A stretch of DNA of 23,406 nt from a virus. Each line of letters begins with the position of its first letter. The stretch's first letter is position 1. The stretch is taken from positions 1-23,406 of IMG/VR virus record IMGVR_UViG_3300035216_000001, one strand, 5' to 3'. A program made the position numbers and the translations under genes. This document shows, piece after piece, positions 10,817 to 12,923 of this stretch. The notes beneath the pieces were generated by a model. That model did not search any database. It was not told where the DNA came from and worked only from the letters and a program-made list of their open reading frames with translations.

Positions 10817-12241
10817 ATGTTTCAGTCCGAAAGATTGCAGGAAAAGTGGAGTCCACTTCTCGACTATGATGGTCTTGATCCAATCAAAGATTCTCATCGT
10901 AGAGCCGTAACCGCGGTCCTGCTAGAAAACCAAGAAAAATTCCTCCGTGAGGAGCAAGCATTCTCGTCAGGTATCAACCTGATGGAATCCCCCACCGTCA
11001 ACACCGACCCTGGAGCTACCGGAAACGCTGGCTTCTCTGGTAGTGCAAGTGGTACAGGTCCTGTTGCAGGTTTCGATCCCGTTCTGATCTCACTGATCAG
11101 ACGAGCAATGCCTAACCTGGTCGCTTATGACCTGGCTGGTGTTCAACCAATGAACGGTCCTACTGGACTCATCTTCGCAATGAGATCCCGTCTACAAGAT
11201 CAGAATGGTGCAGAAACGTTCTTCGACGAAGTAGATACCGCATTCTCTGGTCAGGACGCTAATTTCGATCTGACTGGTGGTATGTCCGATGTCCAAGCTG
11301 GTCTTGGTACAACCGCACAGTCTGGTAGCAACCCAGGTGTTCTGAACCCTGTTGGCACAGCCAATTCCGAAGGCTATGTCGTCGGTCAGGGTATGAAGAC
11401 CCAAGACTCTGAAGCACTGGATAGTGGCAATAACGCCTTTAACCAGATGGCTTTCTCGATTGAGAAAGTTACTGTTACAGCCAAGTCAAGAGCCCTGAAG
11501 GCCGAGTACAGCTTGGAGCTGGCACAGGACCTTAAGGCTATTCACGGTCTTAACGCTGAAGCCGAACTGGCTAACATCCTCTCAACCGAAATTTTGGCTG
11601 AGATCAACCGTGAAGTCATCAGAACTATCTACAAGGTAGCTGAACAAGGTGCTGTTTCTAACACCGCTACTTCCGGTATCTTCGACCTGGACGTTGACTC
11701 CAACGGTCGTTGGTCCGTTGAGAAGTTCAAAGGACTTCTTTTCCAAATCGAGCGTGACGCTAACGCGATCGCACAAAGAACTCGTAGAGGGAAAGGCAAC
11801 ATGGTTCTGTGTTCCGCAGACGTTGCTTCCGCACTTACGATGGCTGGTATCCTGGATTACACTCCAGCACTGAACTCCAACCTGAACGTAGATGACACCG
11901 GTAACACCTTTGCTGGTACCATCAACGGTAAGTTCAAAGTTTATATTGACCCATACGCCGCTAACCTGACCTCAGGTAATTCGTCTGGTGGTAACCAGTA
12001 TTACGTTGTTGGTTATAAGGGTTCTTCGCCTTATGACGCTGGACTATTCTATTGTCCTTACGTTCCCCTTCAAATGGTTCGTGCTGTTGGAGAGAACTCC
12101 TTCCAGCCCAAAATTGGCTTCAAGACCCGTTACGGGATTGTTGCTAACCCATTCGCCGAAGGTACTAACCCAGGTTTGGGTCGTCTTCGTGTCAACTCTA
12201 ACCGCTACTACAGACGTGTGGCTGTTAAAAACCTCATGTGA
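10817..12241 (+). CDS. 23: Major capsid protein (gp23)
   Basis: A 474-residue HK97-fold shell protein. Family blocks are visible: LISLIRRAMPNLVAYDLAGV (about 95-114) with QPMNGPTGLIFAMRSR after it, SRALKAEYSLELAQDLKAIHG (about 220-240), and the C-terminal GFKTRYGIVANPFAEG. In T4 the N-terminal 65 residues are removed by gp21 after an Ile-x-Glu type site. Here LME (55-57) or LRE (43-45) before the Gly/Ala/Ser-rich segment would serve. AAGGT (10806-10810) is 6 bases before the ATG. No good late promoter is seen in the 35-base gap before it, so it may rely on the promoters at 9662-9673. Its codons are more GC-rich than its neighbours, in keeping with high expression. A strong terminator follows. 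Confidence 0.97.
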   Translation: MFQSERLQEKWSPLLDYDGLDPIKDSHRRAVTAVLLENQEKFLREEQAFSSGINLMESPTVNTDPGATGNAGFSGSASGTGPVAGFDPVLISLIRRAMPNLVAYDLAGVQPMNGPTGLIFAMRSRLQDQNGAETFFDEVDTAFSGQDANFDLTGGMSDVQAGLGTTAQSGSNPGVLNPVGTANSEGYVVGQGMKTQDSEALDSGNNAFNQMAFSIEKVTVTAKSRALKAEYSLELAQDLKAIHGLNAEAELANILSTEILAEINREVIRTIYKVAEQGAVSNTATSGIFDLDVDSNGRWSVEKFKGLLFQIERDANAIAQRTRRGKGNMVLCSADVASALTMAGILDYTPALNSNLNVDDTGNTFAGTINGKFKVYIDPYAANLTSGNSSGGNQYYVVGYKGSSPYDAGLFYCPYVPLQMVRAVGENSFQPKIGFKTRYGIVANPFAEGTNPGLGRLRVNSNRYYRRVAVKNLM

Positions 12242-12242
12242 T

Positions 12243-12347
12243 ATGAGTGGATGTTGTGGGGCTGGATGTCCCACTTGTCCTTTCAGACCCCCATCTCGGG
12301 GGTCTTTTTTATGCCTACTGATAAATACTAAAAAAGAGTGCCGATAG
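12243..12347 (+). CDS. Cys-rich micro-ORF after gp23
   Basis: A 34-codon ORF beginning MSGCCGAGCPTCPFRPP, one base after the gp23 stop (TGAtATG) and ending directly against the gp3 ATG. The CCGxGCxxCP pattern is the kind of four-Cys knuckle found in small oxidoreductase-like or metal-binding proteins, which argues for selection. The ORF has no Shine-Dalgarno and would depend on coupling to gp23. Oddly, codons 15-23 encode the terminator hairpin, so terminated gp23 mRNA would lack a stop codon for it. It could equally be a chance frame; conservation in relatives would decide. Confidence 0.4.
   Translation: MSGCCGAGCPTCPFRPPSRGSFLCLLINTKKECR
12285..12310 (+). terminator. Strong intrinsic terminator after gp23
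   Basis: AGACCCCC (12285-12292), loop ATCTC, GGGGGTCT (12298-12305), followed at once by further T's to 12310. Eight perfect pairs, five of them G-C, with a T-run: a textbook rho-independent terminator closing the capsid transcript. Confidence 0.9.
12320..12327 (+). promoter_or_regulatory. T4-type late promoter before gp3
   Basis: GATAAATA lies 10 bases after the gp23 terminator. With T4 spacing transcription would start near 12333, and the 15-base leader would begin with AAAGAG, a usable ribosome-binding site 9 bases from the gp3 ATG. Confidence 0.55.
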
Positions 12348-12923
12348 ATGGCGACAAGAAGACCAATACAAGATCAAACTAAGAAGGCTCTTCCCTCAAG
12401 TCAACCTTCTAATAGAAACTTCCTGATACCAAATAGTTTTCAATTTTCTATCGAAAGAACTCCCACAGTTGGGTTTTTTGGTAGTATAATAAACGTACCA
12501 GGTATAACCTTGGGGGTTGTAAATCAATCCAATTATCTCAAGACTATCCCTAGACCTGGAGAGATCTTAGACTTTTCTGATCTAGAGTTAACATTCTTTG
12601 TTGATGAAGATCTTCAAAATTATCTTGAGATTGATAAATGGATGAGAGGACTGGGTTTTCCTGAATCTCTTGAGCAAATTTACAATCTTCAAAATGAAGG
12701 TGTAGGTACAGTTAGTTTGGATGTTTATTCAGATGCAACTCTTGTCATCAACAACAACCAACAAGAACCGGCTTTTAAAGTAAAATTTAAAGACATGTTC
12801 CCATACTACCTAAGTCCTCTAGAATTCAACTCTCAAGTAGGAGATGTTGAGTACCTACAAGCTAGAGTTGGTTTCAAATACCTTATATACAATATCACGC
12901 CCGGTGGTGGGCCCTGTTGCTAA
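12348..12923 (+). CDS. 3: Tail completion / sheath stabiliser protein (gp3-like)
   Basis: A 191-residue protein placed between gp23 and uvsY, the usual position of gene 3 in T4-like cyanophages. T4 gp3 (176 residues) caps the tail tube and stabilises the sheath end. The sequence shows a tube-family look: FLIPNSFQFSIE (25-36), FVDEDLQNYLEI and KWMRGLGFP (84-105), a pattern also found in tube and tube-initiator proteins (gp19/gp54-like). A related tube-type tail protein is therefore the main alternative. The C-terminus ends GGGPCC. The stop overlaps the uvsY start as TAATG. Confidence 0.65.
   Translation: MATRRPIQDQTKKALPSSQPSNRNFLIPNSFQFSIERTPTVGFFGSIINVPGITLGVVNQSNYLKTIPRPGEILDFSDLELTFFVDEDLQNYLEIDKWMRGLGFPESLEQIYNLQNEGVGTVSLDVYSDATLVINNNQQEPAFKVKFKDMFPYYLSPLEFNSQVGDVEYLQARVGFKYLIYNITPGGGPCC

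Follow-up and report, generated by a model that had tools for sequence, protein, structure and literature searches.

A conserved cysteine-rich tail 3′ of the cyanophage major capsid gene and a candidate overlapping gene in its +1 frame

The locus downstream of gene 23

The stretch of DNA analyzed here (“the window”) comprises the 23,406 bases of a virus record. Best named matches over its gene 23 (gp23) region are Synechococcus and Prochlorococcus phages. T4-like cyanophages are much-sequenced marine viruses, and gp23 is a widely used marker gene for them. The window features described below lie on the plus strand. In the ORF list, gp23 occupies positions 10817–12241 and encodes a major capsid protein of 474 amino acids ending in KNLM-TGA; it matches PHROG 138 (major head protein) with an E value of 1.5e-168. 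The gp23 stop codon (TGA, 12239–12241) is followed one base further on by ATG 12243, from which a frame of 34 codons is translated as MSGCCGAGCPTCPFRPPSRGSFLCLLINTKKECR. This frame ends with TAG at 12345–12347 and adjoins ATG 12348. A first-pass annotation had proposed these limits for a free-standing micro-ORF (12243–12347), and the coordinates were confirmed; ATG 12243 itself is found in a minority of relatives. The next gene in the ORF list (12348–12923), whose ATG abuts the stop of this frame (frame A), is a putative gp3, placed as in ACG-2014g, where the gene beyond the gap is annotated as gp3.

The conserved core of the peptide, CCGAGCPTCPFRP, is encoded at 12252–12290. DNA matching the pattern CCGxGCxxCP occurs once in the window and in none of 100 shuffles. 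A 7-pair hairpin predicted by folding (12256–12274) lies inside the core, just 5′ of an intrinsic terminator recognized by sequence and folding. The terminator was correctly placed by the first-pass annotation inside the frame, ending at about 12310, with its stem at 12285–12305 and its T-run at 12305–12310; the arms encode part of RPPSRG. Within the 3′ end of the frame lies GATAAATA (12320–12327), which resembles the T4 late promoter consensus.

The extent given to the frame was right from 12243 onward and was understated at its 5′ end, where the frame is also open into gp23 as a 119-amino-acid ORF from GTG 11988 that contains ATG 12033. The proposed overlapping +1-frame gene, with ATG 12033 as its probable start and TAG 12347 as its end (12033–12347, 104 amino acids), is based on this open frame and on the depletion of +1 stops across roughly the final 70–80 gp23 codons of motif-bearing relatives. 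The sequence AAGGGT (12017–12022), 5′ of ATG 12033, is weak evidence for a ribosome-binding site, since it also encodes Lys-Gly of gp23.

Conservation and settings of the cysteine tail

A search of relatives for the motif after gp23, as the first-pass annotation had suggested, located it directly 3′ of that gene. Using the 34-amino-acid peptide as query, tblastn returned 109 phage records at E values up to 10. In 105 of these the name is Synechococcus phage or cyanophage; the remaining four (Caulobacter, Streptomyces) probably match by chance. No CDS is annotated over the motif in any of the 11 GenBank regions opened. Many of the rows listed name a feature under the match, and in the five opened this feature was the end of the upstream gene. 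The motif is directly 3′ of the capsid gene in S-RIM12, ACG-2014a, ACG-2014g and S-MbCM100, the gene being labelled head vertex precursor in the last three and not in S-RIM12. In ACG-2014c, d, e, g, h and j the motif follows a small hypothetical gene, with psbD, a SAICAR synthase gene or nrdC nearby in ACG-2014d, e, g, h and j. ACG-2014g has both a gp23-linked and a small-gene-linked copy.

Three settings were distinguished in viral contigs. In class I the motif follows gp23. In class II it comes after small genes with ends such as SREKLEKLYDKE or ERIEVIGKHF and takes the form RGCCGAGC[PYRH]DCPFRP; many of these copies have an ATG or GTG, and the ATG often overlaps the end of the upstream gene. 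Certain class II rows, such as L098, L122, L253, L256 and L285, lack both ATG and GTG within 7 codons; their nearest ATG is 19 codons upstream. In class III the motif follows a Cys/Gly-rich gene ending in KISYM, which is presumably tail-fibre-like; a Pfam search of this gene gave no match. One copy (L024) has its own ATG and, by eye, a Shine-Dalgarno-like AAAGGAG. In L404 (10480–12897), three Cys/Gly-rich genes stand in tandem, with the motif after the third in +1 phase and without a nearby start codon; another gene of the set also ends in YM. The +1 frame preceding the L404 motif is open for more than 130 codons. In L406 (1855–2600), two copies flank what by eye is a GIY-YIG homing endonuclease-like gene just 3′ of gp23. 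The frame of the first copy is closed 9 codons before the motif and has no start thereafter; the second, behind the GIY-YIG-like gene, has an in-frame GTG.

A search of a genome collection (84,980 species) for a bacterial home of the FRP form gave one exact-pattern match. This was L417 (NZVE01000039.1), filed as a Rhodobacteraceae MAG and carrying a class III gene and the motif; it is probably a phage contig. The tail family therefore appears to be phage-borne, as its sole match in the collection lies on a contig with a class III phage gene.

Judged from its codon-level variation, the cysteine-rich peptide CCGxGCPxCP[FY]RP is real, conserved and under selection. Six loci (L009, L016, L033, L043, L057 and L116) with the DNA pattern in another frame were excluded before substitutions were counted. 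Codons of the forms TGY, GGN and CCN were set in advance by the pattern scans, one of which also fixed codons 11–13. For frame A of the core, pN/pS was 0.13 among 34 distinct start-less cores of the gp23 type and 0.07 among 40 distinct cores from other copies, versus 0.73–2.8 for the other two frames; with several residues dictated by the collecting patterns, these values are biased low. Core codon columns in start-less copies vary mainly at third positions, with entropies of 0.15, 0.18 and 0.88 at positions 1, 2 and 3.

As a control on sampling, an anchor scan was performed outside the motif, in which nothing of the motif was specified except a shared AGACC. Of 120 stretches listed, 112 were examined and the remaining 8 were loci already in the set. 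Motif was carried by 12 of the 105 distinct anchor matches listed, not every one of which was confirmed as gp23. These twelve matched at 29–38 of 38 bases (next best 23), and all are in +1 phase. Eleven are intact and encode CCGxGCP[TD]CP[FY]RP; the twelfth (L515) has the motif with a whole-codon insertion. The pN/pS values of the core and this control uphold the earlier suggestion that CCGxGCxxCP is selected. The outcome that the first-pass annotation named as refuting it, unconserved Cys codons or a broken frame in close relatives, was not what the comparison showed. The motif is nevertheless confined to a minority of gp23 genes: none was found at 75 further distinct loci among the best 80 listed, three of which lie on motif-bearing contigs already counted. 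The six excluded loci have signal-peptide-like gene starts (MKK..AAAVALPALSDP, by eye) that mimic the motif DNA in another frame, and such starts are a trap for pattern scans.

Spacers from the gp23 stop to the core were tabulated for the 81 distinct gp23-linked copies listed, and were 7 (49 copies), 10 (30), 4 (1) and 17 (1). Spacers of 4, 7 or 10 place 80 of the 81 in +1 phase, a constant phase relative to gp23. The exception, L118, has its own GTG and a closed +1 frame. An ATG of the window type after the gp23 stop is present in 8 of the 81, the window included; 72 have no ATG, GTG or TTG between the gp23 stop and the motif, and one has GTG. The last gp23 codon is ATG in 81/81 copies with the motif and 76/76 without it, where one collecting scan demanded ATGTGA and the anchor scan demanded AACCTN before ATGTRA. 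This ATG was considered as part of the element and dropped, given the ATG-stop of motif-less gp23 genes and the YM ending of another L404 gene.

Depletion of +1 stops near the end of gp23

Stop codons were analyzed in 186 distinct gp23 3′ ends, of which 82 have the motif no more than 40 nt away and 104 lack it. L118 (from the 104) and L406 and L409 (from the 82) were set aside as classes of their own, leaving 103 and 80. Trees contained 71 motif-bearing and 98 motif-less genes (169). L515, if in a set, was counted as motif-less.

Over the last 76 codons, +1 stops occurred once in 6000 codons of motif-bearing genes versus 71 times in 7725 codons of motif-less genes; the +2 frame was similar in both. 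Expected numbers were obtained by resampling synonymous codons per gene. In the last 69 codons of the 80 motif-bearing genes, 1 stop in the +1 frame was seen versus 116.4 expected. Control windows further upstream gave 148 seen versus 133.9 expected for codons 95–163 (72 motif-bearing genes) and 65 versus 80.0 for codons 164–232 (69 motif-bearing genes), or 0.8–1.1 of expectation. Motif-less genes are partly depleted too, with 71 seen versus 170.4 expected in codons 1–69 from the end, perhaps because the motif was lost recently (losses make up 11 of the 18 inferred changes) or because another local constraint acts.

Shared ancestry was treated with a tree built from gp23 upstream of the last 85 codons, on which motif presence changes at least 18 times. 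Gains of +1 stops numbered 1 on motif-bearing branches, 40 on motif-less branches and 7 on branches with a change of presence. From third-position changes, 29% of the gains would be expected on motif-bearing branches (p = 1.1e-5, or 3.6e-4 without the Leu site described below). The control region (codons 95–162) gave 27 motif-bearing versus 69 motif-less gains (p = 0.31), and the +2 frame gave p = 0.08. In a GC3-matched set of 109 genes, 1 gain was observed per 633 third-position changes with the motif versus 17 per 626 without it. The GC3-matched sets are alike from codon 83 upstream, so protection fades somewhere around codons 70–90 from the gp23 end. A test on independent pairs, of which few were informative, favoured the expected direction by a mean of 4.3 to 0.0 of 14 pairs (median p = 0.125, not significant). 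Sequence comparison shows that the tail is selected, that it keeps its phase and that the +1 frame upstream is protected.

The Leu codon of NLM-stop is CTC or CTT in 80/80 motif-bearing versus 75/103 motif-less genes, and any other Leu codon there would close the +1 frame. Note that the AACCTN demand of the anchor scan works against this result, because it removes TTA and TTG codons from the motif-less genes.

A +1-frame ATG is found at codon 69 from the gp23 end, formed by TAT-GAY of Tyr-Asp (12032–12037 in the window). It is present in 77 of the 79 motif-bearing gp23 genes having a Tyr-Asp/Asn site (L129 and L218 are without it) versus 92 of 99 motif-less genes, and should not be considered established as a start, since it is nearly as common without the motif. 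At other Tyr codons before Asp or Asn, TAT is used in 61–66% of cases, versus these two proportions at the codon-69 site. Synonymous diversity in the overlap is not reduced (ratios of 0.92–1.02, as further upstream), and the amino acids of the overlap are therefore not visibly selected. Also against an overlapping gene, one motif-bearing locus, L216, has its +1 frame closed by a stop some 17 codons from the end of gp23, with no ATG, GTG or TTG after it.

Interpretation

On the evidence of sequence, we consider it probable (roughly 0.6) that the motif forms the C-terminal part of an unannotated +1-frame gene, which overlaps gp23 at its 3′ end and starts probably at ATG 12033. The gene would start within gp23, pass the stop codon of gp23 as well as the terminator, and end with the stop codon at 12345–12347; we infer its translation, start codon and function. 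L118 and L406, in which the +1 frame is closed, are exceptions in keeping with this reading, as each has a motif copy with a GTG of its own. Ribosomes on gp23 mRNA would enter the overlapping frame by internal initiation. The overlap of about 70 codons would need only to remain open, with amino-acid selection visible solely in CCGxGCPxCP[FY]RP. Read-through mRNA would yield the full protein, whereas on mRNAs ending at the terminator ribosomes would run off without a stop, as a mechanical consequence only. In out-of-frame overlapping genes of phages and other viruses, depletion of stops in the alternative frame is confined to one stretch of the host gene, and the pattern here is alike. Unlike such genes generally, the overlapped part here shows no amino-acid constraint, and solely the tail beyond gp23 is conserved.

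Concerning mRNAs ending at the terminator, the first-pass annotation had proposed that most gp23 messages lack the stop codon. Frame A is indeed without a stop before the end of the T-run in 80/80 motif-bearing gp23 loci. The other two frames are also stop-free there in 77 of the 80, so GC-rich stems suffice to explain the open frame A. Selection for a non-stop mRNA was dropped as a candidate for the same reason, there being no sign of it in these loci. A wider proposal is that cyanophages have a family of late proteins whose gene sits out of frame inside the capsid gene (in some phages, inside the Cys/Gly-rich tail-fibre-like gene). The four-cysteine tail, the one part conserved, would lie across the terminator such that the read-through fraction sets the ratio of finished to stalled stop-less product. 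We regard this as possible and rather doubtful.

If the overlapping gene is real, this conserved gene, concealed within the end of gp23, would add a late product, place a second constraint on the gp23 codons used as marker sequence, and be an unusual ORF that must be read through an intrinsic terminator. The reading is directly testable with isolates bearing the motif (S-RIM12, S-MbCM100, ACG-2014a and ACG-2014g).

The main rival is a programmed +1 frameshift in gp23, some 70–80 codons or more before its end, yielding a capsid variant with a Cys tail (CCGxGCPxCPFRPP), since this would leave the same marks as an overlapping gene: the near-constant +1 phase, the lack of a start codon by the motif and protection of the +1 frame. 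Shifting at the stop codon would leave the upstream frame unprotected, however, and the invariant final ATG of gp23, found with and without the motif, offers no CCC-type shift site. L118, the second copy of L406 and L024 also possess starts of their own. On balance, we think frameshifting improbable. Listeria phage PSA and T7 gene 10 are precedents for recoding in capsid genes, the terminator taking part in T7 gene 10, and in both, as here, a structural gene has an out-of-frame extension (PMC5009743). Unlike the PSA-type frameshift, the gp23 junction lacks a proline CCC shift site; unlike PSA and T7 gene 10, the +1 frame here is protected well upstream, the frame crosses the terminator and starts of their own exist in related copies. 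Also rejected was a +1 shift of the prfB kind at UGA, as TAA-ended gp23 genes (L406, L409, L412 and L414) carry the motif and the upstream frame is protected.

A free micropeptide from ATG 12243, as the first-pass annotation had in effect described, would perhaps be made by termination-reinitiation one base past the gp23 stop. It would account for the 8 of 81 gp23-linked copies that share this ATG and for the many class II copies in which ATG or GTG overlaps the end of the upstream gene. The 72 copies with no ATG, GTG or TTG at this place, and the protection of the +1 frame far upstream of ATG 12243, count against a free-standing micro-ORF, and we consider it quite unlikely in general; for the copies sharing that ATG, a micro-ORF from 12243 is possible.

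An RNA element or attenuator, in which the Cys codons before the terminator form a regulatory leader or an RNA hairpin is conserved, is very unlikely. Attenuator leader peptides have a Cys-rich short frame ahead of a terminator, and the frame here, with four Cys codons, likewise precedes one; the window RNA also folds better than shuffles (z = −2.64). However, not only the Cys codons but also those for Gly, Pro, Phe and Arg vary synonymously while keeping their residues, unlike in attenuator leaders, where the regulatory codons alone are conserved. Covariation was not detected: in 21 sequences, no compensatory change was seen at any of the 14 predicted pairs. Among the 85 copies that do not belong to the gp23-type set, 13 stop after the T-run, whereas 72 stop before it (51) or have no T-run within 100 nt (21), again unlike leaders of this kind. 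Finally, chance, with a neutral Cys-rich tail behind a gp23 end that happens to be open in +1 (probability 0.13 over 69 codons for the window alone), is scarcely credible given codon-level conservation and +1-stop depletion across relatives, together with conservation of the frame in the anchor-scan sample, which was not chosen by motif.

As to function, four cysteines, as in the DUF5522 motif, suggest from sequence a small metal-binding or redox tail that would be made together with the capsid. No match for the tail peptide was obtained in PDB and NCBIfam searches; in PHROGs, the window peptide matched nothing and the L024 peptide gave weak matches only (E values of 0.22 and 1.3). A literature search, which was incomplete and is not proof of absence, found no report of this peptide, and a search on DUF5522 found no paper. 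The closest profile is DUF5522 (Pfam PF17653), a family of unknown function, which shares with the cyanophage tail the Cys core CCGxGC-x-x-CP-[FY]-x-P. The L024 peptide aligned with profile positions 33–45 of 48 (E = 7.9e-4, 19.9 bits) and the window peptide with positions 34–45 (E = 0.17, 12.4 bits), both below the gathering cut-off of 25 bits. Profile positions 1–32 are unmatched by the cyanophage tail peptides. A match obtained with hhalign should be considered circular, because both sets were picked by the same motif. The cyanophage form has FRPP where longer DUF5522-like proteins mostly have a sequence like [EDF]PKHxKGN. These longer proteins, of the CCGNGCRHCPYEPKHxKGNT type, are frequent among the IMG/VR matches listed (L001, L006, L010 and others).
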